DNA of 21,856 nucleotides from Botryllus schlosseri (Eukaryota; Chordata; Ascidiacea; Stolidobranchia; Styelidae): NCBI GenBank assembly GCA_000444245.1, contig ATSW01007514.1:1-21856 (forward strand), read 5' to 3'. The notes under the pieces were generated by a model. That model was not told the DNA's origin. It saw only the letters and a program-made list of their open reading frames with translations, and ran no database searches. Numbering within the stretch: position 1 is the stretch's first letter; the number at the start of each line of letters is the position of its first letter. This document shows, in pieces, positions 326 through 21,810 of this stretch. Position numbers and translations under genes: made by a program.

Positions 326-1312
326 GTAAGTCTAATTCAAGTTATCTTGATTATTTAAATCCGTCACCGGCACTCATCTAGAAAAAATGTTATACAAAGT
401 ATGATGTATATGACTTTGGTCATTGTGAATAGTGCAAATCTTTTTTTGATTTTGGACTGTGCGTCAATAATTCTGGCCAATTCAAATAATATTAGGCTAC
501 TGTATCGACCGTTCTTTTGAATGAATGCGCCGTTCGTTTCATGTCTAAAGACATACATATTTGTATAGATCATATCCATGCCAATGTTGAATCTCATGGT
601 CGAAAATCAGTGGGTAAGACAATCTGGATATGCTCTCGAGGCACTCAATGGGTGGAATAGGTTTTAGGGTAGTGCACATTATGGTGCCCACGCACGCAAG
701 AGTGTGGATATGCATGCCATACGTTTTAAGAAGAATTTATATTATACAAGTATTTGAATGTGCAATTGTGCATTGATGATTTGATTTAGTAAATGCAACT
801 TACAGTTATAACTAAATGGCTAAGCTCGACAAAACCATAGGTATATTTGTAATGTGTTAATGTGTATTGAGTAGGCCTATACTTATGCGTGTGGATCAGG
901 TAAGCACGGTTAGATTGCGTTAATTTTTAGTAAGCATCGATCCAAAAACAGTGAAGGATGTGGCATTTTCAAACTTGTTATTAAAAGTTCCCATAATCCT
1001 GGGACATGAAATATCGAGATTCATTCTAAATATGTATAACCCGATCACGATGGGCTCAACTGATTTCCTATTATACTTTTGGAATCATTTTTTTGACTGC
1101 ATATTTTATACCATAGGCTTTGTAAGTACAGAACTTCAATATAGCAACAAACAAATTGTATTGCATACCAGTGTCTACCTTTTTATCTATTCCTAATCTA
1201 AATAAATGTTGCCTACGACTGCTTGTTTGCGTTTAGTAGCCTGCTGTTTTTTATTTCACGCATCGTCCTTTTCATTTCTCATTACCAAGACGTTAAACTT
1301 GTTCTGACACAG
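326..1312 (+). other. Probable intron before the giant exon
   Basis: It begins GTAAGT and ends ttctgacacag, with pyrimidine-rich sequence at 1263-1285 and a branch-like CTGAC at 1304-1308. The frame of the giant exon has a stop at 1294-1296, so the coding segment must begin after that point by splicing. A second good donor at 900 (ATCAG|GTAAGC) could mark an alternative small exon. Short open frames at 364-597 (minus) and 951-1196 (plus) have low-complexity, non-coding-like translations and no supporting signals. Confidence 0.45.
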
Positions 1313-2950
1313 GATCAGAGCTAATACATCAGTCAACGGTGACATCGGATTCACCCGCAGAAGCGCTTCAGACTACATCATCGAACTCTTTGCAAAATGA
1401 ACTTCACGACAGGGTCTTGCTAGAAAGCAGTCTCGAAGACGACCTTGCTGATGTCGGAAGTGATGAAGTTTCAGGTCCGGATCATAGCATGAAAAAGATG
1501 GATATAATAGATTGGATGAAAACAGATTTGGCGTTGGCAATGGAAAGTGCAGTGACTGCGAAAAAACGACGGAAAAGACAAGCTATCAAGGAAGAAGTTA
1601 TCATCCCTGCAAAGGCGCATGATCAACACGAGCAACCTGCCGCACAGATAGCAGATGCGGAACAAGCAAAGAATATACTAGCAAGCCATATGGCAGATGA
1701 TTTACAAGCTAATTCAGAGCAAGAATCGCCAAAATATACCGGTCATAACGCGGATATCGAATCAGACGTAGTGCCGGTTAAAGCACAGAAAATCCAAGTA
1801 GGCTTAAATGTAAATGAACTTTTCCTGGAGAAAGCAGCAGACAAGGCTTCTATATATGAAGATAAACCAAGTGAAAATGTCTCAATGGCAGAAGAGACTG
1901 ATCCGGACGCAAATTCTACTGAAAATCTGACAGTTAACACTGTAACCTGTAGCTCATCTTCAGACCAACTCATAGCAGAATGTTCAGAGTCGCAAGATCA
2001 CGACGAAGATATCGCAAAGCAGTCTCCAGAAGCTGTGGCTGGAGAGGAACCTGATATCATCGATCATGTAACTGAAGCATCTGAAATTTCGCATCAGGGC
2101 ACACATGATGAAAATTTGTGTGCCGACAATGCTGCATCCGCAGAACACCTCTCTTTGCCGGATAAGGAGAGCAGCAGACTATCCAGCGCATCCGACGATA
2201 GCTCGATTGGTGAGGATCAAATGTCTCTGATGCAATTTCTCGAGTCTTTGCCTTCCGCCAAGGCTTTGCGTTCACCTCGTGGGCATCCTAGTCCAAGATT
2301 GAGCAGGCAGATCTCCATCGATTCAATTACAAGCAACGACGCCGTCGTGAATTTACTCGAAGATATGGTCGCGAAAGTTGAGGATAACGCTTCCATATCG
2401 GCTGCTGTCGATTCAGCTGTCATAAAAATAGACGAAACAAATGAGGAGTTTGAGAATTATCCAGCATCGAACATGATATTACCTGAAACTGAAATTTCAG
2501 AAAGCAACGTTGAGCCATCAGCCGCACAGGATGCCTCCAACAGCGTACTTGAAAAAGACAATAAGTCATCAATTGAGGTAAAGGAAATGGAAGAAACAAT
2601 GACATCAATACACGTAAGCGATGTGATGAACCAAATGGAAGGAAATTATGAAACTGAATCTGACAAACAGGATGTTAAAATCGTAGTTGACCATGATTTG
2701 CGTGAAGTATCCGAGAACAAAGATTTACATCAAAAGTGTGGGGACATTAGTAGCTCTGCTGCTGCCGATTCTGGCGTTACTGTTCTTCCATCACCAACAA
2801 ACACAGATGTGGATAATACAACAACGTCCGACACTGCTAACAGAGATGCAGCTGGCGACAATGTTTCCTTACATTCATTCGAAACTGATGCATTCGCTAC
2901 AACTCAAATTGAATTGGATTCATCGGCAGACTTGGCAACAGCGGAAGGGG
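1313..2950 (+). CDS. Giant disordered repeat protein, N-terminal part of the giant exon
   Basis: Open in one frame from the acceptor at 1312 to the six-G run at 2947-2952. The GTG at 1339 is not a start; reading begins at the splice site as (G)SELIHQSTVTSDS. The product is acidic and rich in Ser, Asp, Glu and Ala with no signal peptide or membrane segment. Two local features stand out. A predicted amphipathic stretch near 1489-1570 (KKMDIIDWMKTDLALAMESA) runs into a basic cluster, KKRRKR, at about 1558-1577, possibly a nuclear signal or a lipid/polymer-binding patch. A basic Ser/Pro island near 2267-2330 (SPRGHPSPRLSRQISIDS) carries R-x-x-S sites of the kind basophilic kinases use. The composition continues unchanged into the following segment, so both are read as one exon interrupted by a one-base frame change. 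I do not recognise the family. Confidence 0.75.
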
Positions 2951-2952
2951 GG
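2947..2952 (+). other. One-base frame switch at a G6 run
   Basis: Upstream the codons read GCG GAA GGG GGG TGT and hit a stop at 2998-3000. Reading five G instead of six moves directly into the downstream 11.6-kb frame as AEGGVSFAETGRVEN, with no break in composition. The simplest explanation is a homopolymer length error or an allelic indel. An alternative removes the site by splicing: in-phase donors at 2578 (GAG|GTAAAG) or 2614 (CAC|GTAAGC) could pair with an acceptor ending at 2968. Programmed frameshifting is least likely, because the known animal cases do not use this context. Confidence 0.7.
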
Positions 2953-5900
2953 TGTTTCATTCGCAGAGACTGGACGTGTAGAAAATGTGATTGCTTATGA
3001 CGAAACTGTGGACTATTCTCCTAAACAAACTGTCGATGAAATCGCAGTCGCTTCGGAATTATATCCTGATTCAGATTCGAATGACGGCGCGCCTTTTGAA
3101 CTCGAAGATATCGCTAGTTCTATTGATAGCTATGGAAGCTCTAATCCGTCTGCGTATGCCGACTCGTATTTGAGATATGACGAGCTTCTGAACGTGAGCA
3201 ATGCCGGCATTTTGCAAGACCCAGAACACATACCCACGATATTGGTCACGGATTATGACGAAGATCTCTCGGAAATGACATTGACGAGATATGTGCGACA
3301 AAGCGAAAGCTGGAGTTCTGATTTGTACATTAGCGACGAGGATGAGGTGGAATATAACAGAGAAAGCTCCTGGTCTCGAGATGATACTGAAGATACTGTT
3401 AAAGACGAGGAAACTGTTGATTCGCAACCAGATTCATTACGGCAGTCATCCAGGAATAGCGATTTCATCGATGCCTCTGATTTTCACAGCGTGCCCGACA
3501 GTGAGAATGATTCATCGCACATATCATACGATATTCAAGCAGAATCTTTCACAAAGAACGAGGAAAATATCGATTACACCGAAACACCGCAAAGTGCAGA
3601 TCAATATACGCGTTCACAGGATTCGCACGTTGAAGATACAACTCTTGTATCTGAAGAATATGATGCAGAAGTTGAACAACTGGAGGCAGATATTGAGCAA
3701 AGTGTTGATTCACCCGAAGAGCCAAGTGTGATTGATGATGCGGACACAAGCGAACCAGTTTTTATGCTTGGAAACAATCATTACGTCTCCTACAATGTGG
3801 ACGAGGATGATGAAATCGTGATGTATCCACAGGACTCTTCAAACGTGCCCGATTCACCCATGAATTTTGTACGGAATCTGTATCCAATTGAGGAAGAACA
3901 TGAACCAGACGAGAACCAAATGGGTTTTCAGGAAAACGAAAATCCAGCAGCAGACAAGTCACAAAGTAAGCCATATATTGAAGAGTCAGTCACCCCATAT
4001 CCTTCTGGCGATAGCCAACGTGGTAAGGAAGGTATGTCAGTAGATGATCAAACACTCAAAGAGAGGTCAATCGATGATATATCACAGAGTAACGTTACTG
4101 ACAATAATGAGATTCAGTCTGTCGCAACATCTGATGCTGTGGGTGGTGGAGATAGTAACATAGAAACAGTAAAGTCAGTTGATGCTGAGATGCGTAAAAT
4201 CTCTACAATTCACGATGTGGAAGTCGAAACTCCACAAGTGAATACTGAGCAAGCAGATGAACAGTCCCTTATCAAACAAACGTATTTGACTTCACTAGGC
4301 GACGAAATACTGCCAGACGATGTAAACACACAAGCTGATGAAGCAAACACGTTACCTGTTACTGAAGCAGTAGATCCCGTTTCTGTTTGTGAGACGACGA
4401 AAACAAAATTCAGTGTAACCGATGAATTGGTGGATGAAGTCAATATCGGACACTCAGAGGCTGATTCACTGTTAGAATCTGTTAAGGAAGCCCACGCCAC
4501 TACTCATGTACAAGAGTTGGAAGTTTCAACAAGAGATGAGCTATCACCGACTCAAGAAAACAATTTGAATGAACCAACTCAACAAGAGTCCATAGATCAG
4601 GAAGAACATAGTGATCCAGACTTTAAAGAAAATGATTCGGACCGTAACACGAAATATTTGGGTGAATTGATCTTAACGAATACAGAGATTTTCACCGGTG
4701 ATGTAGCTATTCATGCTGAAAAGGGGGTGGTGATTCAACCTCCTGCAGACGAATCAGATGTTGAAACACAAGGAGCAGAGCGAACTCATGATATTGAAAT
4801 TGATGGATCGATTTCAGAACATGCTCCTGACAATTCCGCAATTGGGACTGAATTGCAAACGATAGAACACACTGAAAGCTCAAGTTCCAGAGTAACAGAC
4901 ACGTTGGATTCAACTGTGACTCATTCACTAAATGAAGCAGAAAAAGATCTAGAGAAGCTAGAAGAGCAGGTCAATCTCTCGGGTTCAACCATTTGGTATG
5001 TGGACGCAATACATGGTATGAATGAAAACGCAGAAGCACAAAGCTCAGACTTTGTTCTACCAGATGTCTCAAAGGAGACGATACCTCCACGACATGACAT
5101 CGGACAAACAGAGGAAATCAGCGCATCAGAAATGATTGAAAATCAACTGAGCACCGTTACTGATACAAATGAAACACTAAGTAGCAAATTAGCATCGCCT
5201 GATTCTGAATCAGTAGAGAAAGTGACTTTGTATGACATATATCCTGTGGATTCCGAATCAACAATAGATTCTCAAACTGTCAATATTCATGAAGTTGACT
5301 CTCAGAGCAAGAATATTGATCCAGTGCAGAACGTCGAAGATTCTATCGCATATTCCAGTATGTCAGGTAATGTTCCTCTTGTCTTGTCAACAAACATCCA
5401 GTCTGAGAGTAATCAGCAAACACAAGCTACCTTCACGGACACTGTGCAGATTTCTGAACAAAATTCGGAATATCATGAGGATGGTTTTAGAGCTGATGAA
5501 GTTCAGAAGACATTAGCTCCTCAATTTGATCCAGATGGGATAGAGGAAGCAAGCACCGAAATTGGTGGAGCTTCATATAAACAGCCACTGTCATCAACTG
5601 AGTTTGCCACCAAGCCACTGATTGAAGAGTTCACTGAACAGGCGGGGGCGCACGTTGAGTCTAATGTATTTGAAATGTCTGACACATCCACACCTTCAAC
5701 TGAAGAGACTATTACACGGACTTTGGCTGAAGAGAAAATGCAAGTATCCGAAATGGCTGATACATCAGCACAGCTAGTTGAAGAATCCACTGAAGAGTCA
5801 CAGACTCAACTTCAATCCGAAGTCTCTGCTATGGCTGCAATATTCACGCCACTGATTGTAGAATCCACTGAGCAGGTTTTCACTCAAGCTGCATCGCATG

Positions 5901-8900
5901 GATCTGAAATGGGTGATACATCCATATCACAAAGTGAGAAGTCCGCTGAACAGGCACAGACTCAAATTGAATCAGAAGTCTCCGAAGTGGCTGATTACTC
6001 CACACCTCTACTTAAAGAATCCACTGAACATGCCTTGACTCAAGATGAATCACATAAATCCGAATTGGCTGATGCATACGCGTCGCTAGCAGAAGAGTTC
6101 AGTAAAGAGTCACAGAATCGAGATGAATCCAAAGTCTCTGAAATGGATGACACATCTATGCCACTGATTGAAGAGTCTGTTGAACAGTCCTTGATTCAAT
6201 ATGAATCACCTAAATCTGAAATTGCGGATAGCTCCAGACCACTGACTGAAGAGTCCATTGAAAAGGCGCAGACTAAACTTGAATCACAAGTCTCTAAAGT
6301 GACTGATTCGTCCACCTCACTAACGGAAGAGTCTACTGAAAAGAATTTAACTCAAGAAGAATCACATTTATCCGAAAGGGTTGATGCATCCACGCCACCA
6401 CGCACTGAGAAGTTTACTGAACATGATTTGAATCGAGATGAATCACATATATTCACTCCATTGATTGAAGATTCCACTGAACATGCTTCGACGCAAGTTA
6501 AATCACATATACCTGAAATATCTCATACATTTATTTCACAAACTGAAGCGGTCACTGAAGAGGCACAGCATCCAGTTGAATCCAAAGTTTCTGAAATTAC
6601 TGATCCATCCACACCACCTATTGAAGAGTTAATTGCACAGGTATTGACTCAAGATGAATCACACGTAGCTGAAATGGATGATACATCCACGCCACAAACT
6701 GGAGAGTCCAGTGAAGAGGTACAGACTCATGGTGAATCCAAAGTCTCTGATATGGCTGTTATATTCACGCCATTGATTCAAGATTTCACAGAGCAACCTT
6801 TCGCTGAAGTTGAACCGGATATATACGAAATGGGGGATACACTCACACCAAAATCAGAAGAGTCCATGGATGAGACACACACTCAAGTTGAATCCAAAGT
6901 CATTGAGATGACTTTTACACCCATACCTTCAACTGAAGAATTTCCTGAAGAGGCACAGACTCCAGTCGAATCCAAAGTTCCAGATATGCCCGATACATTC
7001 ACGCCACTAATCGAACAGTCCACTGAACACACGCTAAAGCAAGATGAACCGGGTGAATCCGAAATCGATGATGCGCCGACGCTATCAATTGGTCAGTCCG
7101 CTGACCAGCCTTTGAATCGTGATGAGTCAAAGACATTGGGTATATCTGATGATGAATCACCAAAGTCATCGATTTCCCCTAGAAGGAAAACAGTGAAAAA
7201 GAAAAAGGCAACGACTGACAAATCTCAGGATATAACAAAGAAGTCGTTGAGAAGGAAAGTTATTAGGAAATCTTTGAAGGATCAAGAAACTGCGATCACG
7301 GATGATCCTGAAATAATAATCAGCACTCATCAAGCATCTCCTGGTACGAATGCTGAACTAAATGAGAACAAAGCTCAAGAATATGATTCGGAAAAAATGG
7401 TGCAAGTCGATCTCATGAATGCAACAAAGACTGACACTGCTGTCAAGCTGACCAAAAGGAAAACCATTAAGAAAAAGAAGGGTAAAGACGAGTCACAAGT
7501 CAGCCTATCTAAGAAGAAGATCATAAAGCGCAAGATTCAGAGCGAAATCTCACCTGGAGAACAGGCCTTATTTGCACCTGGATCGACAGAGCAAGCTTCA
7601 TTTGATGGTGAACCAAATGTGCATGCAAGTGATATTTCTGCACCTGAAATCGTTGATACATCAATGCCAACAAATCAAGAGTCCATTGCGCAAGCTTTGA
7701 TTCAAGATGAATTGAAAGTGTCTGAAATGACTTACACATCAGAACCACCATTTGAAGAGCTCAGCGAACAAGCACTGCCTCAAGTTGAATCCCAAGTCTC
7801 TGAAATGATGACTGTTATATCCACGTTACTGATTGAAGAGTCTACTGAACAGGCCTTATCATCTCAAGATGAATCGCATATCTCTGAAAATGCAGATACA
7901 TCAACGCTACCAATTAAAGAGGCACGGATTCGAGTTGAATCTGAAGTGACTGATTCATCCACGTCACTGATTGAAGAGTCTGTTAAGCAGGTCGCAACCC
8001 AAGACGAATTATCTATATCTGAAATTGCTGAGTCTGAGTCTACTGAACAGGCATTGACTCAAGATCAGTCGCATATATCTGAAAAGGCTGATATATCCAC
8101 TATATCCACGCCACCTTCTGAAGTGTCTACTGAACAAGCTTCGACTCAAGATGAATCGCACATATCTGAAATAGTTGATACACTGATTGAAGAATCCATT
8201 GAACAAGCCTCGACTCAAGATGAATCGCATGTGTCTGAAAATGCTCATTCATTCATCCTGCCAACTTCTGATTCTAATGAACAGGCATCGAATCGTGATG
8301 AACTGCACGTATATGATATAGCTGATACACCCGCGCCACTGATTGGAGAGTTCACCGAAATGGCCCCGATTCAAGATGAATCACATATATCTGAAATGTT
8401 TGATATGTTCACGTTTCCAACGGAAGAGTCTACTGAACAGAACTTGGCTCAAGATGAATTCCATACGTCCGAAAATGCTGATACAACCACGTCACTGATC
8501 GAAGAGTGTACTGAACAGGCGTTGACTCAAGGTGAATCGCATATATATGAAAAGGCTGATATATCCCCGCCACCTACTGAAGGGACTACTGAACAAGCTT
8601 CGACTGAAGCTGAATCGCACATATCTGAAATAGATGATTCATCCACACCACTGGTAGAAGAGTACGCCGAACGGGCCACGACTCATGATGGATCACATAT
8701 ATCTGGAACTGCTGATACATACGCGCAACAAACTGAAGAGGCCCAGACTCCAGTTAAGTCTGAAGTTGCTGATTCATCCACACCACTGATTGAAAAATCC
8801 ATTGAACAAACCTCGACTCAAGATGAATCACATCTATCTGAAATGTTTGATATATCCACGTCTCCAACTGAAGAGTCTACTGAACAGAACTTGGCTCAAG

Positions 8901-11900
8901 ATGAATTACATACGTTCGAAAATGCTGATACAACCACGTCACTGATTGAAGAGTCTACTGAACAGGCCTTGACTCAAGATGAATCGCACGTATCTGAAAA
9001 GGCTGATATATCTACCCCGCCAACTGAAGAGTCTACTGTGCAAGCTTTGGTTCAAGATGAATCGCAAACATCTGAAATAGCTGACACACCCACACCACTG
9101 ATTGAAGAATCCATCGAGCAGGCCTCGACTCAAGATGAATCGTACATATCCGAAAAGGTTGATATATCCACCACACCAACTGAAGAGTCAACTGTGCAAG
9201 CTTTGGTTCAAGATGAATTGCAAACATCTGAAATAGCTGACACATCCACACCACTGATTGAAGAATCCATTGAACAGGCCTCGACTCACGATGAATCGTA
9301 TACATCTGAAAAGACTGATGTATCCACGCCATCGACTGACGAGTCTAATGTACAAGCTTTGCTTCAAGATGAATCGAAAACATCTGAAATAACCGATACA
9401 TCCACACCACTGATTGATCAGTCCACTGATCAGGCCTTGAATCAAGATGAATCGCATGTATCCGATAATGCTGAAGCATTCATGCCACCAAATGGTGAGT
9501 CTACTGAACAGGTCTTGTCTCAAGATGATACACCCACGTCACAAACTGAAGAGGCACAGACTCCTGTTGAATCTGAAGTTGCTGATTCATCCACACCGCT
9601 GATTGAAAAATCCACCAAACAAGCCTTGACTCCAGATGAATCTTATCTATCCGATAATGTTGATACTTTGATATCACCAACTGTTGAGTTTACTGAAGCG
9701 GCCTTGACTCAAGATGAATTGAATACATTCGATAATGCTGATGCAGCCACCAAACAGGCCTTGGCTCAACATGAATCACTTACATCAGAACAGGCCGATA
9801 CAGCCGTACAACAAACTGAAGAGTTCGCTGAAGAGGCACAGACTCAACTGGAATCCAAAGTCTCTGATATGGATGATACACCTACGCCACATATTGAGGA
9901 GCCCACCGAACATGTGCTAATTCAAGATGTACCACTCGAATCTGCAATGGATGATGCATCCAATCTTATAATTGTCGAGTCCGGTGACCAATCGTTGAAT
10001 CAAGATGAGTCAAAGACATCAGAGATATCCAAGGCGAGAGAATCAGCTGATGATGATTCACCGAAGCCATCATCTCTCCCTAGAAGGATTACAATAAAAA
10101 AGAAAAAAACTACGACTGACAAACCACAGGATATCGCAAAGAAGTCGATCAGAAAGAAAGTGATTAAGAAATCAGCAAAAGATCAAGAAACTGCAATCAC
10201 AGATGATTCTGAAAACCTAATCAGCATTCATCAAGCATTTCCCGGTATGAATGCTGAACTAAATGAGAACAAAAGTCAGGAATATGAGTCGGAAGGAACC
10301 TTGCAAGTTGATCTCACGAATGCAACGAACACTGACACAGTTGCGAAGTTGGCCAAGAGGAAAACAATTAAGAAAAAGAAAGGTAAAGACGAGTCACAAT
10401 CCAGCACATCTAAGAAGAAGGTCATCAAGCGCAAGAAAAATAACGAAAGTGCATCTTCACAGCAGGATTCATTTTCATCTGAATCCACAGAGCAAGCGTC
10501 ATTGGATGGTGAACCATATGTAAATGCAACTGATATTTCTGTACCTGAAATGGCCGATGCATCAATGCCAGCAACTGAAGAGTCCATTGCACAACCTTTG
10601 ACTGAAGATGAATTGCAAGTGTCTGGAATGACTGTTACATCAGCCCCAACAATTAAACAGTCTCTGCCTCAAGGTGAATCCAGGGGTTCTGAAATGGCTG
10701 ATATATCCACGTCACTGATTGAAGATTCTACTGAACAGGACTTGACTCAAGATGAATCGCATATATCTGAATATGCTGATACATCCACGCCACTCATTGC
10801 GGAGTCTACCGACAAGTCCTTGAGTCAAGACGAGTCAGATATATCAGAAAAGGCCGATACATCCATTCCACCAACTGGAGAGGCTACTGAACAAACTTTG
10901 ACTCAAGATGAATTGCAGATAACTGAAATAGCTGATAAATCCACACCACTGGTTGAAGAGTCCGGTAAGCAGGACCTGATTCAAGATGAATCGTATATAT
11001 CTGAATATGCTGATACATCCACGCCACCAACTAAAGAATTCACGGAAGAGATTGTGAACGAAGTTGAATCGCATGTAACTGAAATTGAGGATACGAATAC
11101 GGCAATGATTGGAGGGTCCATTGAACAGGTATTGACTATAGATGAACCACAAGCATCTGAAATGGCTGATACATCAGCTTCAACAACAGAAGAGTACTCG
11201 GAACGGGCTTTTCCCCAAGAAGATTCACAATTATCCGAAATAGCTGGTACGTATATATCTGCAACTGAAGAGTCCACTGAACAGGCTATTTCTCAAGGCG
11301 AACCTCAAGCACCTGAAATAACTGATACATCAGCTTTAACAACTCAACAGTACTCGGAACATGTTTTGCCTCAACAGGATTCACAATTAACTGAAATTGC
11401 CGATACATCCACACCTACAACTGAAGAGTCCGTTGACCAGGCTCTGATTCAAGATGAGATAAAGACGTTGGAATCATCCAAAACAACAGAGTTCACTGAT
11501 GATGCACCACAAAAGCCATCGCCAAGAAGAGTGACAATTAAAAAGAAGAAAACTGCAAGCAACAAACAACAGGATATCGCAAAGAAGTCGATCAGGAAAA
11601 AAGTTATAAAAAAATCGACCAAAGACCAAAAAATTACAATCACAGAAGATTCCGAAATAGTAAGCAATCAAGAATCTTCATCAAGCAACGCCGAGTTAAA
11701 CGAAAACACAAATCAAGGATGTGACTCGGATGGTAGTCAGCAAAGGCCCGAAATAGATGATACAATCGGACCAAGTTCTGACTCTACGTATAAGATGATA
11801 ACTGAAGGTGAACTGTCTATTCCGCCTGTAGAGGACAATGCATCGAATTGCGAATCAGCTATCGCTGACCCACATCGTGAATTAGTAGCTGACGAAGGCC

Positions 11901-14545
11901 CTGCTGTACTTAATTATGCGTCTGAATATGCAGGAGACGGACTGTTTACGTCTGATATACCCCAATCTCTACCATTGTATTCAGCCGATCATGCCACAAT
12001 GGCGAATGAAACACCGATATTAATTTTAACGTCTCCGTCAAACACGGAAACCGAAATAAAAGCCGAAGTTTCTATATTTGAAAAGAAAACCAGAAAGTCC
12101 AGAAGGAAGAGTCTGATTCGAAGGAGAATCTCTGGCGCAACAGACGAGACGTCAAGTAACGATGGTGTTCTCGATTCGTCGGAAGATAATCTATCAGATA
12201 AAGAAGGCCTCTCCTATTATTCAGCAGCAGAAGAACTCGAAAATCTATCAGAAAGCGGTGATGTCACAGACCACAGCGTAGAATTCGATACAGAAACACC
12301 TGTCGGTGATGCCGTAAAGGATGAAAATGAGTCCAAACCTGATACAGTTGGTGGAGCCGCTTTGGAAGAGGAAGACATTAATATATCAACGCCTGTAGTG
12401 AACCAGGTATCGGATGATAAGCGATCTCAAACACAGGTGAAAAAAATTACGAAAAAGTCAAAGAAAACTGTCAAATCAGTCAAGAGAAAGGTAATTAAAA
12501 AGGTGCAGACCAAAGGAGATGACACTGTACAAACTGATGAGCTGGCGGAGGACCCGGAAGTCACAGAACCAAGCGAAGGGACGGGTGACATTTTTAATAT
12601 CTCTGCTGGAACTTACGTGTCAGATGACACTCTATCACAAGATATGCCATCTTCACACGCGACCGAGAATACAAAGGTAGCAAGTCAAGAACAGTCCGAA
12701 TCGGACCGTGCTGGTACGACACACGAAATCGTCACGGAGGACAAAGGCGATGGAGAGAACAATGAATCAGGGGTTCAGGCCGAACTGCCTCAGCGTAAAG
12801 TTAAGAGAAAGACAGTAAAGATTCGCAGACAAACTACGGACGGCTCCACAGACAAGAAGTCAGTAAAAAAGAGGGTGGTCAAAAAAATGCAACTAGTCAG
12901 CGGTCAGAATACAGTAGAAGCGACAGATGTTGAAGTCCAACCCGATGCTAACACTCTCTCGAGTGAGCAAGTGATTCAAACTCGAGTGAATATCCAGGTT
13001 GGTGACAATGAAGTAGGGGATGAAGGTTTTTCCATTGAAGACAGGGACAAACTATCTACCGAAGTTCAATCACAAATATCTGATGCTGTCGCCGATTCTG
13101 ATGGGTCATCTTCTCAATTTCAATCAATTTCAGAGGACCTGACTGTTGAGCACCAAAGCACAATCAATAGAGAGACAGTCAGCGACGATGAAATGAAACT
13201 TGTTACATCGAGCGTTTCTATAGCAGCAGATGCAGCTGACAGAAGCAGTGCCGTCAGTCCTGTGCCTTTTGACAATGCGTCGAGAAAAATCAAGAAGATC
13301 AAAAAGTCTTCGAGGAAAAAGGATGCAGAGAAAACACCTTCGATAAAAAGAGTTCCCAAACCGACAAACGCAAATGATCAAATCTCTACAGACTCACACT
13401 CTCCCGTAATGAGTCCACACGCTATCGACGTGATTGAAAAGCCAGATCCAGACATACACGATTCCGTGTCACAGGCTTCAGCAACTCCCACTACGAGTTG
13501 CATTGATGCGCAATACGTGGAATCCGGTGTCGTAGCGCAATCCACACCAGTTCAGTTCAAAACGAATGCTGAAATATGCGATTCAAATACAGACGAACAG
13601 TCGAATCGCAGTATGTCCGTGATGATAATATCCTCCAATGAAGTTGATCAAGATTTGGCAGCTAATACTCACGAACTAGAACAGGCGTGCGAGCCCATAG
13701 AAAGCATCGATGCTGCTGTAGGAGAGTTAGGATCTGCAGATAACATCACTTCCGAAACTGGTAATCAACCAGTGGTAGTGGAAGGCACTGCTCCAACCGA
13801 AATCGTCCAAGAAACACAGGATCGCGATCAATCTTTGACAAACTTATCTTCGCCGACAGAAGATACTTCACTAGCTCGATCTTCAGAGAATGAAACAATT
13901 TTTGAGGAATCATCTGATGGTACACGGGATAACAAGCATAACAGTGGCGAAGAATTTAATCCAATTTCAGAATCAAGCACAGGTCACGATTCCAACTCTC
14001 AAATTTCATCAAAAACGGAAAACACCGTCGGCATCAGCGATCTAGTTATGGCAGATTACGAAATCTCGCCAGACCCGCCAAAACTCAAGAAATCAATTAA
14101 AAAAATTAAGACCAAAAAGTCTAATCGAGATTATACCGCAGCGGGCGAGGAGGACGCTTCGACTCGTCCCAAATCAGCCAGAAGGAAGGTTATAAAAAAG
14201 GCGCCAAGAGACTCGCCTAAACCAGACACGGAGTCAGCAGAAGTACCAGAATCTTCAAATGTTGAACAAATCCCAGACAGCACTCATGTTGTTTTAGAGG
14301 GCGAATCACACGTAGAACAATCCGCAATGTCACAAATCCCGGTTGACGAATCGGCACAGTTGAAACAAGAAGAGACGGCTACGACAGCGCCGGTGAAAGC
14401 GGTGAAAAAGGTTAAGAAATCGACAAAGCAGGTACCGGCTGACGCCGACAGCAAAGGCGATTCAAGTAAAAAGACGACTGTAAGACGAAAAGTGGTTAAA
14501 AAAGCACACAAGCCAGCCGATCCTGAGAGAGATGATAGGACGTGA
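2951..14545 (+). CDS. Giant polyampholyte repeat protein, main part (about 3,860 codons)
   Basis: One unbroken frame of 11.6 kb. An ATG at 2687 in this frame is spurious: the 88 codons after it are the out-of-frame, hydrophobic shadow of the upstream coding segment. In order: an acidic Ser/Asp/Glu/Tyr-rich segment (2951-5580); repeat array A (about 5,585-7,140); basic module pair 1 (7,181-7,540); array B (about 7,570-10,020); basic module pair 2 (10,082-10,443); array C (about 10,477-11,475); basic module 3 (11,522-11,620); then a non-repetitive acidic tail with further basic modules near 12.1, 12.45, 12.8, 13.3, 14.1 and 14.4 kb. No enzyme motif, Ig, ankyrin, death, SH3 or transmembrane segment was seen. 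The alternation of strongly negative and strongly positive blocks with little hydrophobic content implies an extended disordered polymer. Cytoskeletal spacers such as MAP1/Futsch, neurofilament tails and giant ankyrin exons have this style, but no homology is claimed. It ends at TGA 14,543-14,545, which overlaps a possible donor at 14,542 (GTGAGA), so the true C terminus may lie further on. Confidence 0.9.
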   Translation, partial: GVSFAETGRVENVIAYDETVDYSPKQTVDEIAVASELYPDSDSNDGAPFELEDIASSIDSYGSSNPSAYADSYLRYDELLNVSNAGILQDPEHIPTILVTDYDEDLSEMTLTRYVRQSESWSSDLYISDEDEVEYNRESSWSRDDTEDTVKDEETVDSQPDSLRQSSRNSDFIDASDFHSVPDSENDSSHISYDIQAESFTKNEENIDYTETPQSADQYTRSQDSHVEDTTLVSEEYDAEVEQLEADIEQSVDSPEEPSVIDDADTSEPVFMLGNNHYVSYNVDEDDEIVMYPQDSSNVPDSPMNFVRNLYPIEEEHEPDENQMGFQENENPAADKSQSKPYIEESVTPYPSGDSQRGKEGMSVDDQTLKERSIDDISQSNVTDNNEIQSVATSDAVGGGDSNIETVKSVDAEMRKISTIHDVEVETPQVNTEQADEQSLIKQTYLTSLGDEILPDDVNTQADEANTLPVTEAVDPVSVCETTKTKFSVTDELVDEVNIGHSEADSLLESVKEAHATTHVQELEVSTRDELSPTQENNLNEPTQQESIDQEEHSDPDFKENDSDRNTKYLGELILTNTEIFTGDVAIHAEKGVVIQPPADESDVETQGAERTHDIEIDGSISEHAPDNSAIGTELQTIEHTESSSSRVTDTLDSTVTHSLNEAEKDLEKLEEQVNLSGSTIWYVDAIHGMNENAEAQSSDFVLPDVSKETIPPRHDIGQTEEISASEMIENQLSTVTDTNETLSSKLASPDSESVEKVTLYDIYPVDSESTIDSQTVNIHEVDSQSKNIDPVQNVEDSIAYSSMSGNVPLVLSTNIQSESNQQTQATFTDTVQISEQNSEYHEDGFRADEVQKTLAPQFDPDGIEEASTEIGGASYKQPLSSTEFATKPLIEEFTEQAGAHVESNVFEMSDTSTPSTEETITRTLAEEKMQVSEMADTSAQLVEESTEESQTQLQSEVSAMAAIFTPLIVESTEQVFTQAASHGSEMGDTSISQSEKSAEQAQTQIESEVSEVADYSTPLLKESTEHALTQDESHKSELADAYASLAEEFSKESQNRDESKVSEMDDTSMPLIEESVEQSLIQYESPKSEIADSSRPLTEESIEKAQTKLESQVSKVTDSSTSLTEESTEKNLTQEESHLSERVDASTPPRTEKFTEHDLNRDESHIFTPLIEDSTEHASTQVKSHIPEISHTFISQTEAVTEEAQHPVESKVSEITDPSTPPIEELIAQVLTQDESHVAEMDDTSTPQTGESSEEVQTHGESKVSDMAVIFTPLIQDFTEQPFAEVEPDIYEMGDTLTPKSEESMDETHTQVESKVIEMTFTPIPSTEEFPEEAQTPVESKVPDMPDTFTPLIEQSTEHTLKQDEPGESEIDDAPTLSIGQSADQPLNRDESKTLGISDDESPKSSISPRRKTVKKKKATTDKSQDITKKSLRRKVIRKSLKDQETAITDDPEIIISTHQASPGTNAELNENKAQEYDSEKMVQVDLMNATKTDTAVKLTKRKTIKKKKGKDESQVSLSKKKIIKRKIQSEISPGEQALFAPGSTEQASFDGEPNVHASDISAPEIVDTSMPTNQESIAQALIQDELKVSEMTYTSEPPFEELSEQALPQVESQVSEMMTVISTLLIEESTEQALSSQDESHISENADTSTLPIKEARIRVESEVTDSSTSLIEESVKQVATQDELSISEIAESESTEQALTQDQSHISEKADISTISTPPSEVSTEQASTQDESHISEIVDTLIEESIEQASTQDESHVSENAHSFILPTSDSNEQASNRDELHVYDIADTPAPLIGEFTEMAPIQDESHISEMFDMFTFPTEESTEQNLAQDEFHTSENADTTTSLIEECTEQALTQGESHIYEKADISPPPTEGTTEQASTEAESHISEIDDSSTPLVEEYAERATTHDGSHISGTADTYAQQTEEAQTPVKSEVADSSTPLIEKSIEQTSTQDESHLSEMFDISTSPTEESTEQNLAQDELHTFENADTTTSLIEESTEQALTQDESHVSEKADISTPPTEESTVQALVQDESQTSEIADTPTPLIEESIEQASTQDESYISEKVDISTTPTEESTVQALVQDELQTSEIADTSTPLIEESIEQASTHDESYTSEKTDVSTPSTDESNVQALLQDESKTSEITDTSTPLIDQSTDQALNQDESHVSDNAEAFMPPNGESTEQVLSQDDTPTSQTEEAQTPVESEVADSSTPLIEKSTKQALTPDESYLSDNVDTLISPTVEFTEAALTQDELNTFDNADAATKQALAQHESLTSEQADTAVQQTEEFAEEAQTQLESKVSDMDDTPTPHIEEPTEHVLIQDVPLESAMDDASNLIIVESGDQSLNQDESKTSEISKARESADDDSPKPSSLPRRITIKKKKTTTDKPQDIAKKSIRKKVIKKSAKDQETAITDDSENLISIHQAFPGMNAELNENKSQEYESEGTLQVDLTNATNTDTVAKLAKRKTIKKKKGKDESQSSTSKKKVIKRKKNNESASSQQDSFSSESTEQASLDGEPYVNATDISVPEMADASMPATEESIAQPLTEDELQVSGMTVTSAPTIKQSLPQGESRGSEMADISTSLIEDSTEQDLTQDESHISEYADTSTPLIAESTDKSLSQDESDISEKADTSIPPTGEATEQTLTQDELQITEIADKSTPLVEESGKQDLIQDESYISEYADTSTPPTKEFTEEIVNEVESHVTEIEDTNTAMIGGSIEQVLTIDEPQASEMADTSASTTEEYSERAFPQEDSQLSEIAGTYISATEESTEQAISQGEPQAPEITDTSALTTQQYSEHVLPQQDSQLTEIADTSTPTTEESVDQALIQDEIKTLESSKTTEFTDDAPQKPSPRRVTIKKKKTASNKQQDIAKKSIRKKVIKKSTKDQKITITEDSEIVSNQESSSSNAELNENTNQGCDSDGSQQRPEIDDTIGPSSDSTYKMITEGELSIPPVEDNASNCESAIADPHRELVADEGPAVLNYASEYAGDGLFTSDIPQSLPLYSADHATMANETPILILTSPSNTETEIKAEVSIFEKKTRKSRRKSLIRRRISGATDETSSNDGVLDSSEDNLSDKEGLSYYSAAEELENLSESGDVTDHSVEFDTETPVGDAVKDENESKPDTVGGAALEEEDINISTPVVNQVSDDKRSQTQVKKITKKSKKTVKSVKRKVIKKVQTKGDDTVQTDELAEDPEVTEPSEGTGDIFNISAGTYVSDDTLSQDMPSSHATENTKVASQEQSESDRAGTTHEIVTEDKGDGENNESGVQAELPQRKVKRKTVKIRRQTTDGSTDKKSVKKRVVKKMQLVSGQNTVEATDVEVQPDANTLSSEQVIQTRVNIQVGDNEVGDEGFSIEDRDKLSTEVQSQISDAVADSDGSSSQFQSISEDLTVEHQSTINRETVSDDEMKLVTSSVSIAADAADRSSAVSPVPFDNASRKIKKIKKSSRKKDAEKTPSIKRVPKPTNANDQISTDSHSPVMSPHAIDVIEKPDPDIHDSVSQASATPTTSCIDAQYVESGVVAQSTPVQFKTNAEICDSNTDEQSNRSMSVMIISSNEVDQDLAANTHELEQACEPIESIDAAVGELGSADNITSETGNQPVVVEGTAPTEIVQETQDRDQSLTNLSSPTEDTSLARSSENETIFEESSDGTRDNKHNSGEEFNPISESSTGHDSNSQISSKTENTVGISDLVMADYEISPDPPKLKKSIKKIKTKKSNRDYTAAGEEDASTRPKSARRKVIKKAPRDSPKPDTESAEVPESSNVEQIPDSTHVVLEGESHVEQSAMSQIPVDESAQLKQEETATTAPVKAVKKVKKSTKQVPADADSKGDSSKKTTVRRKVVKKAHKPADPERDDRT
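5585..7140 (+). repeat. Array A of a 78-bp (26-residue) coding repeat
   Basis: About 20 diverged units. The recurring core is [AVD]D-T-S-T-P-L-I-E-E-S-T-E, then Q-A-x-T-Q-x-E-S, then a short S-E-[MIK] ending. Many units here carry the variant TEEAQTxVESKVSEM. This is the most diverged of the three arrays, suggesting it is older or less homogenised. It lies wholly within the open frame, and length changes keep the frame. Confidence 0.85.
7181..7540 (+). repeat. Basic module pair 1
   Basis: Two related Lys/Arg clusters separated by an acidic linker. The first (7,181-7,275) starts RRKTVKKKKATTDK and closes KKSLRRKVIRKS. The second (7,456-7,540) starts TKRKTIKKKKGKDESQ and closes SKKKIIKRKI. Both have the plan [KR]RKT[VI]KKKK, a gap of about 8-13 residues, then a second cluster ending in V-I-[KR]-[KR] or I-I-K-R. 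The linker (QETAITDDPE... to ...NATKTDTAVKL) is acidic. The pair sits between arrays A and B and is repeated almost intact 2,901 bp downstream. Possible roles are binding an acidic polymer (microtubule, RNA, actin) or the protein's own acidic arrays; this is inference. Confidence 0.85.
7570..10020 (+). repeat. Array B of the 78-bp coding repeat, with 156-bp dimers
   Basis: About 31 units, the longest and most regular array. The core unit is PLIEESTEQALTQDESH followed by [IV]-S-E-K-[AV]-D. Near 8,900-9,400 the units form 156-bp dimers in which a PLIEES type alternates with a P[PS]TEES type. The unit at 9,021-9,130 matches that at 9,177-9,286 with only a few base differences over about 100 bp. 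A further block at about 8,400-8,600 is repeated at about 8,847-9,047 (offset 447 bp). Some units are shortened (TEEAQTPVxSEVADSS type at 8,732 and 9,545). The pattern indicates ongoing tandem duplication or conversion under frame-preserving selection. Confidence 0.88.
10082..10443 (+). repeat. Basic module pair 2
   Basis: A close copy of module pair 1, offset by 2,901 bp. The first cluster (10,082-10,176) reads RRITIKKKKTTTDK and closes KKSIRKKVIKKS. The second (10,354-10,443) starts AKRKTIKKKKGKDESQ and closes SKKKVIKRKK. The linker between them is also nearly the same as in pair 1 (QETAITDDSE, NAELNENKSQEYESE, VDLTNATNTDT). The similarity continues into the first units of the following array (DGEPYVNATDISVPEM against DGEPNVHASDISAPEI), so the duplicated block included the module and array sequence on its 3' side. 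Confidence 0.88.
10477..11475 (+). repeat. Array C of the 78-bp coding repeat
   Basis: About 13 units between module pair 2 and module 3. The 5' units resemble the start of array B (TDISVPEMADASMPATEES), supporting duplication of the array-plus-module block. Several central units keep TQDESHISEYADTSTP. Later units diverge to a Gln/Pro-richer form (EQYSE or EEYSE followed by ...PQxDSQL[ST]EIA). The whole array is in frame. Confidence 0.85.
11522..11620 (+). repeat. Basic module 3 (third copy of the first cluster)
   Basis: Starts RRVTIKKKKTASNK and closes KKSIRKKVIKKS, then TKDQKITITEDSE and NAELNENTNQG, matching the first half of module pairs 1 and 2. Its start is 1,443 bp after that of pair 2, about half the 2,901-bp spacing between pairs 1 and 2. 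The second cluster (KRKTIKKKKGKDES) is absent here, and the linker fades into unique acidic sequence after about 11,740. Confidence 0.85.
12080..14515 (+). repeat. Dispersed C-terminal basic modules related to modules 1-3
   Basis: At least six Lys/Arg clusters recur in otherwise acidic, non-repetitive sequence: 12,080-12,131 (KKTRKSRRKSLIRRRIS); 12,435-12,512 (VKKITKKSKKTVKS, closing VKRKVIKKVQTK); 12,790-12,888 (RKVKRKTVKIRRQTTDGST, closing KKRVVKKM); 13,281-13,360 (RKIKKIKKSSRKK, closing IKRVPKP); 14,083-14,212 (KLKKSIKKIKTKK, closing ARRKVIKKAPRDSP); and 14,396-14,515 (VKAVKKVKKSTKQ, closing RRKVVKKAHKP). Four of the six end in R-[KR]-V-[IV]-K-K, the same end as modules 1-3. The two-cluster plan is therefore the older element of the protein, and the 26-residue arrays grew between some of its copies. 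Confidence 0.75.
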
Positions 14546-15115
14546 GAATATTTCCCCATATACTACGTTAAACTATGCAAGCCTTTCGTTCTTATGGCGT
14601 TCAAATTTGCCGACGTATCTCCGTATTGTGATTTTTCATGCTGAAGATATTCCAGAACGAAAATGACGCGTACCGCAAGCTCGCCGTGCGTTGCGGAATG
14701 AACAATGAGCATACAGTGCCAGTTTCTCTTTTTACAGCGTACTATCTACTCCAAATTTCCAATGCTGTCTTACATCGGCTTATTCGCGCGGGCCGGATCG
14801 AAAAATTCATCACAAATAGTATGAATTCGACTCAACCAAAAATAACAAAAATCTGGCCAACATCCACTCCGGATCTGCCTTAATCGTGCACACCACTCGC
14901 TGGTGCAGGCCAATAGACACTTCAACTACACTACGACTTCACATCGATGCAGCATTTCGCCGAGCCTGTCAGCGTTATAAATTACGTCGAAGATTGTTGC
15001 GGGTGTAAGTGCAAGGTTTGGAGGTAACTGCACGAATGCATGCGGGTGATAGGGCTTTGTAAGATATCAGTAAAAGCCAGACAGCATGAAATTAAACTCG
15101 AAGCGTATTTTTCAG
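14546..15115 (+). other. Unresolved 3' splice region between giant exon and last exon
   Basis: GC content and open frames here are higher than in the flanking introns, so part may be exonic. Signals seen: a donor GTGAGA at 14,542 that overlaps the stop codon; an acceptor ending 14,655 (gatattccag); a strong acceptor ending 14,737 (tttctctttttacag); a strong donor GTAAGT at 15,005; and a strong acceptor ending 15,115 (cgtatttttcag). The open frame at 14,638-14,883 (starts MLKIFQNENDAYRK) could be partly coding but has no recognised family. No combination joins the giant exon to the 15,116 exon cleanly. The splice 14,542 to 14,738 is open only to a stop at 14,817. A weaker donor at 14,466 (CAA|GTAAAA) is the one in-phase partner found for 15,116. 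Confidence 0.4.
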
Positions 15116-15774
15116 GAGCTACAAAAGACATTGGCCAAAGCGTCGGCTTTCCCGATAGCTTTTTCTTCCCGATCAAAAGCATCCACGAGAATTTTTTCTT
15201 CCCGCTGAAATCCGAGCCGGTCGGGCAGGAGATACAAAACGAATTCCACTTCCCAATACTCATCCCTTCCAAAGATCCTGTGGATCCGAGTAGGAGATAC
15301 ATATCCAGGGCTGAAATCAGTGAATTCTTCGGTGGAAAATCCGGCTCAGTAGGGGTCAATATTGAAGAAAAACTCACAGTGTCAACCGCGTCTAAAGAAC
15401 CGTCTTCTCCGTCTAAAAAGAAAACCTTGTTCGGGAAAATCATTAACATTTTCTCGAACGAATCGCAGTCACCGGAACACGAAACAGTAATAGTAGCAGA
15501 GGCGCAAAATCAAAGCGTACAATCGGGATTGAAAGCTATAGCGGAGATTGTACTGGAAGAGGAAGCCACGCAGCAGCAACCAGTCAAAACAAACGGTGAG
15601 AATCTCGTAGAGGAAATAATGAATATAGCCACTGGAAACCAGGATAGTCACCCGTCTATTGTCGTGAGCGCGCCGGACCAAGGCGTGAAATCTTCTGTGC
15701 AGGAAATTCAAATCGATTCGGTACGCGTGGATAAGGTCGGTCAGAGTAGCGATGCGGTTATGGTCAAAATTTGA
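15116..15774 (+). CDS. Probable terminal coding exon with FFFP motifs
   Basis: After a good acceptor (tatttttcag, ending 15,115) a 219-codon frame runs to TGA 15,772-15,774; it needs one base from the preceding exon. An ATG at 15,040 extends the frame upstream but lies before the acceptor. The peptide has three similar motifs near its start (DSFFFPIKS, ENFFFPLKS, EFHFPILIPS), then a basic segment SPSKKKTLFGKIINIFS near 15,411-15,461 that could form an amphipathic helix. An acidic tail follows, ending DAVMVKI. The last three residues, V-K-I, match a class II PDZ-ligand pattern, which is weak evidence. The bulk hydrophilic composition resembles the giant protein, so this may be its last exon or an alternative 3' end. 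The family is unknown. Confidence 0.5.
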
Positions 15775-16315
15775 TTGTGCCGACTGCTGGAACATGATTA
15801 TTATCGATTTCCAATGATATAATGATAGTTTGTATATGCAATATGCATATTATGTCTGAAGCTTTACTTTATGAATTTTACGCTTTGCTTCTTTTATATC
15901 TGTTTATGTAGATGTTTATAAGCACCTTGTGTATTCTGTACTGGTTTCGTAGTCACGTATTGAATCTTGCCGTAATATATTATTAAACATATACCTTTAT
16001 GCAATGCTTTCGCGTGAATCGCGTGCTTTTAAATATCGCTGTGAATACGTATTCTTGCGGTCGCGTGACGCAATCAACCAGTTCGCCGTTCCTTGCTATT
16101 ATTACGAAACAGAAGGTGTCTGTCGGGAGTTGTTATAGTTTAAGGTCGTGATCTTGGTTAAACTTGTTGTGTGATCGTTAATCAGTCTTTTATTAGATTT
16201 ATACCGATTGTTATATATGTAATCTTTCTTCTGTTTCATCGAATGCAGCGCATCTGCCTCTCACAATCATATTTTATATCGAACGTACTCGGTCGCCGAC
16301 GAAGAATATAATAAA
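15775..16315 (+). terminator. Probable 3' UTR with poly(A) signals
   Basis: AT-rich sequence follows the stop at 15,774. ATTAAA at 15,982-15,987 is the first plausible poly(A) signal and AATAAA at 16,310-16,315 is the second. A third AATAAA lies at 16,971-16,976. No coding frame is seen. The assignment rests on motif and position only. Confidence 0.45.
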
Positions 16316-17763: not shown

Positions 17764-18391
17764 TGCACACTGTATGACTAGAAAAAAAATTCAAAATTTT
17801 GTGTGTCCTGTAGTCACAAACGACGAACTTTTGTGTCCTGATTGCAAAATTACCAAAAGTTAAGACTGGGTAAACAAAAACCTCGCGCACAAAAATTTTC
17901 CAGTTTTCACGGTATGGGGGATAGGCATTTTTTGTAGATACAGACTATATAATATATATACCGACTGATTTGAATTTAACTGACACAATTCCAATTGCGA
18001 AGATTTAAAATATTATTTTGGTAAACTTTGATCGCTCATATTGAATTATTTCTATCGTTTTCTTGCTTACAGTCAAAATTAAATTATTATTATTATTAAA
18101 TAATAATTATTAATTTCGATTTTAGATGTAGACTGTATAGATCGTTTAATTTCAATTTGTCTGACACAAATCGAACTGGTTGTTCGAAAAGGCGAAAGTA
18201 GAACAACTCAACATATTTTCAGCGGTCTAGAAAACCGATTAGAGGAATATGATGAAAATTTGAAAATGTCATATCATATGTGACTCAGCATCTGTTGATA
18301 CTGGGCGGCGGAATGGCGTTGTTGTGAAACTGCAAATTGCAGTGATGAGCAAGGGTTTTCATAAACCACAATACATTGGTTGCCAACATAA
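17764..18391. other. AT-rich non-coding DNA with a diverged direct repeat
   Basis: Two similar stretches, 17,935-18,005 and 18,123-18,180, share TAGATRYAGACTRTATA, then an ATTTNAATTT-like stretch, then CTGACACAA. Between them is an AT palindrome with an ATT run (18,078-18,116). The pair may be a degraded element with internal duplication. No coding frame was found. Confidence 0.4.
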
Positions 18392-19407: not shown

Positions 19408-20642
19408 AGATTAAATTTGTAGCAAAGAATACCTTTGAATTGTAAATTTTTTCTATATTTGGACCAGTGTCGAAAATTGAAGTTGGTTCGTGCGGGACGT
19501 TTTTTTCGATTTGAACAAAATGATTATAATTTTTTTAATTTATACCAAAATGCTCATCAATTCATGCTACAGGCGAATTTTTTTTCTAGTCATATCCCTA
19601 GTGCACACCCATGCTGTTTGATAGTGTTGACATATTTCTCTGGGAACGAACAGAAAATATACACAATTGCACAATTTCTGTAATTAAATGCCTTCAGGAT
19701 CGCACTATCTTCCTCTTGCCCTCTTACTGCTCGACCCCACTCGGTAATGAGAAGATTGCAATTGTACGGCCCGAAATAGCGTCATTGATTGACATTGACA
19801 TGTGGCTCAACCTGTCACAAAACATTTCAAACGCCTAGATCCCTGACGACATCTTTAGCCAGGGCCTGTTCAAGATCATTGAAAGCATGACGGAATTTGC
19901 CATTTCGACACATTGCATGGGTCTTGTGTATAGAATTATATAGACTTTTGACAATCGTAACAATTAGAGCAGAAAGAAAAGTCCTTTGCTCCATTAAATT
20001 CGAGTCTTGTCTTGTCACCATCGAACAAAAGACACCATCGAACAAATAACAGCAACACCTCGTATGTGATACAATCGTTAAAATTCATTGTTTTCACTTG
20101 TAAAGTCCAAACGCATCACAGGACTGCACTTTCTTCCCTGTAGTAATCAGATCAGGGATGAATTGGAAAATGTTCTCTTTCACACAAAGGGCGTTTTCCC
20201 ACATCGCTTTACCAATGTACTCAAAGTAGAAGACCAAACACATTTCTCGCTACATTAGGATCAATTTACCGTAGCAATTTATTAGCGCGTCGGTATATAA
20301 ATTGGATAATCGAATAATGAAGTATCGGAAATATTGGACTCGGTCCCGTGGGATTTACAGACCGTGTATATCCTAAGAGCGAAACGTGATATCGCTAAAT
20401 GACTATTGATATTATGAGGACTAAACTTTTTTTTTTCTCATGGTGTATTGAATAAGGGGATATATATTGTGTTCCTTAATAGATTCCTCAGCTTCAGCAG
20501 GTTGGTAATCATGAAATTGCGATTTCCTCAAGTATGACATTGGCATTACACGACACAATGCGACTTTATTATGCCTTGTTTCCTACAATTAACTCAGCCT
20601 ACATGGATATGACTTTCTTATGTCGTACGCGGAGGGATGGTG
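19408..20642. other. Non-coding DNA with a small tandem duplication
   Basis: AT-rich with no convincing gene. A 17-bp unit is tandemly duplicated at 20,016-20,032 and 20,033-20,049 (CACCATCGAACAAAAGA, then CACCATCGAACAAATAA). Short open frames on both strands around 19,611-20,045 have no recognisable family; the minus-strand one (19,827-20,045) ends with a soluble-looking peptide but lacks splice or start support. Confidence 0.35.
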
Positions 20643-20799: not shown

Positions 20800-21031
20800 G
20801 CAATAACTCCGCTTCCACTGGTTGGAATTGAGCCAAATTTGGTGAACATCGTTTCTACAGACAACCTAACACTTTCATGAGGTGAACAAAAAATTTTGAA
20901 ATTTTTGTTAATTAATTTTTATATAATAAATAGAAACTTTGTTCTCCTGTAGCAATGCCGCTACTGGCTGGAATTGAACCAAATTTGGTGTGTCGGCTTA
21001 AATTAGGTAACCTAACAATTTTATCAAGTAG
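20800..21031. repeat. Two diverged tandem copies of a ~150-bp unit
   Basis: Copy 1 (about 20,800-20,885) and copy 2 (about 20,952-21,031) share GGAATTGARCCAAATTTGGTG and, about 20-30 bp further on, AACCTAACA followed by TTTTATCA- or TTTCATGA-like sequence. The offset is about 146-152 bp. This is probably a fragment of a dispersed or satellite-like repeat; no coding frame runs through it. Confidence 0.5.
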
Positions 21032-21810
21032 CCAGCACAATTTGAGGAAAAAAGTCATTTTTGAAGACCCCTAATGTACAGTTGTACACGATACCTATAG
21101 CGACGACTCGGGCCACATAATGCCACAATGCTGAAGTACATATTGACGTTTTAAACGTCGCCAAATGTATCAACTGGGACAATCATATGATATAATAATC
21201 CCGTAAAATCAATATCTTCCGTCGCTTTGCCAGCAATTTAGGCGAGAGCTTACAAGGGAATATAAGCTTACGCCTTATCGGTCTAGTCCAGACCGGACAA
21301 TGCATTCGGCGTCCAAGTATTGCAACGGTGATATTGAGCAGAGTGTGAAACGGGTTTCTATACTTGCTACCGATATTACCCCATTAACAAGTTATACAGC
21401 AGTAGCCAACACCCCAATCGCACGGATTTTGTTTTTATGATGCAATAAACATATGAAGTCATGATTGACCCCGTACACCTGCTAGATTTTTTTACATCCG
21501 ACAACGATATCAATTCCATTGATAGCATCATTCACTGACTACATGTAATGTATTTCGATCTTGATGTTGTGTCATTGAGGGTCAAGCTCACAGCAGAGAG
21601 ACACTAAATATTCACAAACGGAAAGCTGGATATTTCGAGATTACTTTTGTAACGAAGCAATTAAAATTTTTGAGATTGTCAAGGTGTATGCTCGTTTAGT
21701 GCTGATTTTTTTATGCTGCCAGCGCCATGTATATAGAGTGGCCCGCAGTTGAAATGCAATAAATTTCAACCAAAGATGTTATAATGAAGTGAAAACTGTA
21801 ATATATGGAA
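21032..21810. other. Non-coding DNA, nothing recognised
   Basis: No coding-like frame or RNA gene was recognised. A small perfect-stem inverted repeat (TTGAAAT / ATTTCAA) surrounds GCAATAA near 21,748-21,770. Confidence 0.35.

Follow-up and report, generated by a model that had tools for sequence, protein, structure and literature searches.

The closest described systems are the giant ankyrins. In Bilateria their long exons average 8.1 ± 4.85 kb (13,344 bp in Ciona), consist of Ser and Glu to ~25% and of six residues to more than 55% – a composition called their most conserved feature – and, in a subset of species, carry repeats of 36–228 bp present in 5 to >160 copies (PMC5135030). These exons lose homology rapidly, such that lack of homology is the norm; the long exon follows the death domain in protostomes and echinoderms and precedes it in chordates (PMC5135030). 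Mechanisms have been described in several animals: in Drosophila the giant tail of Ank2 binds microtubules directly, in C. elegans a complex of UNC-44 with UNC-33 and UNC-119 anchors microtubules, and in mammals AnkG works through EB proteins. Few open frames in animal genomes are longer than those of giant ankyrin exons, which annotation easily overlooks. A further system of comparable style is Futsch, whose tandem repeats differ between lineages: the fly protein has 66 repeats of 37 aa, that of the bee 25 repeats of 18 aa and 50 of 42 aa.

The window analyzed here (a stretch of 21,856 nucleotides from Botryllus schlosseri, contig ATSW01007514.1) contains a coding stretch of ~13.2 kb that extends from 1313 to 14541/14545 (Table 1). 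A scan for open reading frames shows frame 1 open from 1297 to 3000 and frame 2 open from 2687 to 14545. Codon log-likelihood is positive in phase 1 alone from ~1313 to ~2950, beyond which the highest score is that of frame 2, positive over most of its length; translation in frame 2 from 1313 encounters numerous stops over the initial ~1.4 kb. If stops occurred as often as in the flanks (5.7%), an open run as long as the main part would be expected by chance with a probability of ~10^-98. Shuffling the bases of the exon gave a longest open run of 189 codons, and the other two plus frames contain 190 and 461 stops over the main stretch. Comparison of the duplicated basic blocks gave dN/dS values of 0.47 for I vs. 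II (160 codons), 0.16 for I vs. III (with dS near saturation) and 0.16 for II vs. III; in a wrong-frame control the synonymous excess between these blocks shrinks or vanishes. Because chance is excluded for the open frame and dN/dS in the duplicated blocks lies between 0.16 and 0.47, the giant exon is a genuine coding exon, with purifying selection at the protein level among these blocks. The initial annotation had described a single frame encoded almost entirely by one exon: the 13.2-kb coding stretch stands, but it runs in two frames (1, then 2), and the earlier figure of 4,411 codons comes from dividing the total length by three, across the +1 shift. The claim of almost one exon was overstated in that this exon alone is seen and further exons must exist upstream.

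Table 1. Features of the giant exon and of the downstream exon (window coordinates)
Feature	Coordinates	Strand	Description
Giant exon, first part	1313..2949	+	545 codons in frame 1; N part, non-repetitive, acidic and rich in Ser
Giant exon, main part	2951..14542	+	Frame 2; 3,864 codons without a stop
G6 run (GGGGGG)	2947..2952	+	Coding frame shifts +1; probable one-base indel
Acidic repeat zone	5582..11458	+	58 detected copies of a 26-aa (78-bp) unit, consensus SHVSEMADTSTPLIEESTEQALTQDE
Basic block I	7151..7549	+	Two bipartite Lys/Arg modules: 7178-7285, 7442-7543
Basic block II	10055..10453	+	Paralogous copy of block I
Basic block III	11492..11653	+	One module; paralogue of the first half of blocks I and II
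C part	12050..14542	+	Non-repetitive; five more bipartite modules near 12428, 12791, 13283, 14081 and 14384
Weaker basic patch	12050-12160	+	Within the non-repetitive C part
Giant exon end	14542..14545	+	Donor-like GAC/GTGAGA at 14542, overlapping in-frame TGA 14543-14545; splice or stop
Tail exon	15116 or 15180..15774	+	Open frame with coding signal; stop 15772-15774

The change-point optimum for the switch between frames, as located by the codon log-likelihood scan, falls at 2946–2954, and the translation makes coding sense on both sides of the G6 run (...LATAEG, then GVSFAETGRV...). Since the coding signal jumps frame on the run itself, a one-base indel is the simplest account: the switch is most likely such an indel, being either an assembly error or an allele. 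An intron at ~2950 (an acceptor-like TTCATTCGCAG lies just past the run) is less likely, because the frame-1 coding signal reaches up to the G run.

The 5' boundary of the giant exon lies at 1312/1313, where an acceptor (CTGACACAG/GA) coincides with the beginning of the coding signal. There is no in-frame ATG between 1313 and 1490, though coding signal is present; upstream exons are thus expected. Beyond the giant exon, codon log-likelihood is positive over 15400–15760 of the tail exon, for which acceptor candidates are found at 15116/15119 (phase 1) and 15180 (phase 2, the same as the donor at 14542). Those at 15116/15119 have the same phase as the 5' boundary of the giant exon; speculatively, this would permit the giant exon to be skipped. 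A poly(A) signal (ATTAAA) follows at 15982. As the tail exon ends in a stop and this signal lies behind it, the 3' end of the gene is probably inside the window. A second ATTAAA, located at 15091 between the giant and tail exons, could end a transcript that stops at the TGA overlapping the donor. Within the tail exon two 32-nt direct repeats (15146–15210) encode an aromatic motif (SFFFPIK / NFFFPLK), soon followed by FHFPILIP; AlphaFold applied to this exon without an alignment was uninformative (pLDDT 37).

The encoded protein begins with an acidic, non-repetitive N part of 1,422 residues, which precedes the repeat zone. The repeat consensus (SHVSEMADTSTPLIEESTEQALTQDE) is without Lys or Arg. 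Identity between copies is greater at lag 2 (0.49) than at lag 1 (0.40), which indicates a higher-order unit of 52 aa and agrees with a period of 156 bp. AlphaFold, given four repeats and 27 alignment rows derived from the window (shallow and gapped), predicted no secondary structure (pLDDT 57).

Basic islands number 12, compared to 0.3 expected from shuffles, and resolve into ten bipartite modules restricted to the C-terminal 56% of the protein. The module repeats with conserved sequence, beyond charge alone: its consensus is approximately [KR][KR]xT[VI]KKKK-x9-15-KKS[ILV][RK][RK]KV[IV]KK, and the motif [KR]2K[VIT][VI][KR] is present 12 times (shuffles, 0.0), a count that owes part of its size to the duplication of blocks I–III. 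A search of the literature with the letters of the basic motif found no paper. Both the acidic repeat arrays and the compact Lys/Arg modules of the initial annotation are present, and its description of a block polyampholyte is borne out quantitatively. The alternation of acidic and basic segments along the whole protein is not: with the single exception of a weak N-terminal patch (1516–1620), all basic islands lie after 7151.

Ser and Glu together account for 25.7% of residues, Ser, Glu, Thr, Asp, Lys and Pro for 54.5%, and Pro for 4.8%; net charge is −599. Plots of hydropathy against charge place all three parts of the exon on the disordered side. A putative function in spacing or bundling the cytoskeleton is a reasonable guess. 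Among short motifs, EB-binding SxIP sites are not enriched (8 vs. 5.4 ± 2.3) and CK2-type sites are fewer than in shuffled sequence (182 vs. 214 ± 9.5). Motifs for LC8, PP1 and 14-3-3 are likewise not enriched, and these readings were rejected.

Searches of all coding pieces against Pfam and NCBIfam returned nothing above curated cut-offs, in keeping with the earlier statement that the protein has no recognised folded domain; nor did Pfam find a domain in the plus-strand frames of the upstream (1.3 kb) and downstream (7.3 kb) flanks. No relative was found in the PDB (best E 0.19, chance-like) or, as expected for animal DNA, in IMG/VR and GTDB genomes, none of these five libraries being devoted to proteins or genomes of animals. 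Rfam and tRNA searches found no match.

How does the locus compare to the giant ankyrins, the one group for which published quantitative criteria were found? At ~13.2 kb, with one frameshift at 2947–2952, the exon exceeds the >3 kb by which single giant exons are recognized, and its 58 repeats of 78 bp fall within the published range for repeat size and number. Ser plus Glu reaches the ~25% yardstick while the six-residue sum is marginally short of 55%, although such a bias is common to many disordered proteins and each of these ankyrin criteria, taken singly, is non-specific. The resemblance is closest to the invertebrate giant ankyrins (Drosophila Ank2-L/XL, C. elegans unc-44, and those of sea urchin and mollusc), which have the same exon length and Ser/Glu-rich composition, lineage-specific short tandem repeats, a position near the 3' end of the gene and no death domain after the long exon. 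Their genes also encode an ankyrin core with 24 ankyrin repeats plus ZU5-ZU5-UPA; here any such core would be encoded 5' of the window, in which neither ankyrin repeats nor ZU5, UPA or death domains are found and whose upstream portion covers just 1.3 kb. The long exon of the Ciona giant ankyrin is of almost equal length and belongs to the same published composition class; however, in Ciona death-domain exons follow the long exon and none was found here. The absence of a death domain from the 7.3 kb downstream fits a long exon placed after that domain and argues against the chordate position before it. Two published Ciona antisense PCR primers located near the 5' junction of the long exon are absent from this sequence.

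Given exon length, repeat size and number, position at the gene end and Ser plus Glu content, a known kind of gene is likelier than an orphan. The most likely reading of the locus is the giant (long) exon, together with the last exon or exons, of an invertebrate giant ankyrin gene, to which we assign a probability of about 0.5. The initial annotation had not assigned the protein to a known family and had considered its likeness to giant ankyrins perhaps convergent; the same features now favor a known kind, while membership is not proven.

Alternatively, the protein may be a lineage-specific giant disordered scaffold outside known families, its basic islands binding an acidic polymer, be it microtubule, F-actin or nucleic acid; no library searched gave a match (none is eukaryote-focused) and the bipartite module is conserved in sequence beyond charge, but missing homology is equally usual for ankyrin long exons, and we regard this possibility as doubtful. 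Less probable again is an undescribed family of giant cytoskeletal linkers, in which the approximately ten-fold bipartite module, set between acidic disordered arrays, would constitute a new class of polymer-binding motif. Futsch and other MAP1-type proteins – the next named rival after giant ankyrin – combine a giant central exon of lineage-specific repeats with conserved MAP1 domains at the N- and C-termini, and bind microtubules through basic repeats. The style is similar, the link to microtubules is shared, and in Futsch orthologues, too, a large central region carries tandem repeats that differ between lineages. Yet the apparent 3' end of the gene comes without a recognisable MAP1 C-terminal domain: the tail exon has no match in Pfam (assumed to hold a model for that domain) or the PDB. 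Moreover, the published fly and bee repeats are unrelated to the 26-aa unit and match the protein no better than shuffles. The conserved N-terminal MAP1 domain would be encoded 5' of the window. A MAP1-type identity is distinctly unlikely.

The modules, rich in Lys, Val and Ile, may recall PEVK-type segments as in titin; such disordered springs of muscle lie between Ig/FN3 domains, however, and no Ig/FN3 domain is present in the giant exon, tail exon or plus-strand flank frames. With Pro at only 4.8%, and a gene that seems to finish just downstream without such domains, a muscle elastic segment is very unlikely. We give least credence to a nuclear or nucleolar block polyampholyte (Nopp140/Treacle-like): its modules would be nuclear localization signals – which, being basic and bipartite, they resemble – and its acidic arrays CK2 targets, and charge blocks do alternate in the distal half; but CK2-type sites are depleted, net charge is −599 and Pfam gave no match. 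Compatible with any family reading is a gene recently disabled, in which the frameshift at 2947–2952 is real and the exon a young pseudogene. The coding phase does show a clear single-base shift. Against this stand 13.2 kb without any other stop or shift, dN/dS below 1 among the duplicated basic blocks, and the fact that G homopolymers are typical sites of error; recent loss of function therefore appears very improbable.

If the locus is a giant ankyrin, then its long exon would sit downstream of the death domain, an arrangement found in protostomes and echinoderms, and would encode a disordered tail of ~4,400 plus ~200 residues. Together, the long acidic N-terminal stretch and the arrays of the 26-aa repeat would form a self-repelling spacer, and the ~10 bipartite Lys/Arg modules along the distal 56% would offer multivalent docking sites to the acidic tubulin tails. 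Held at the membrane by an upstream ankyrin/spectrin-binding core, the protein could by means of its tail tie down or space axonal microtubules. Ankyrin identity, microtubule binding and a neuronal role are all putative. Since SxIP motifs are not enriched, direct electrostatic binding of the modules to tubulin tails – with the acidic arrays as spacers – is preferred, and we infer that the modules work in this way. The discrete, repeated and constrained basic module would be a concrete candidate for the microtubule-binding element of giant-ankyrin tails, and together with the acidic arrays it would offer a testable design of spacers and stickers.

The non-coding DNA downstream of the gene contains repeats of its own. 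At 20817–21045 a short repeat (ACTGGYTGGAATTGARCCAAATTTGGTG, 93% identical) occurs twice, 146 bp apart, accompanied by a second stretch of 70% identity; the pair is probably a fragment of a dispersed element. Closer to the gene, a perfect 20-nt inverted repeat has its arms at 17773–17792 and 19575–19594, separated by 1.8 kb.
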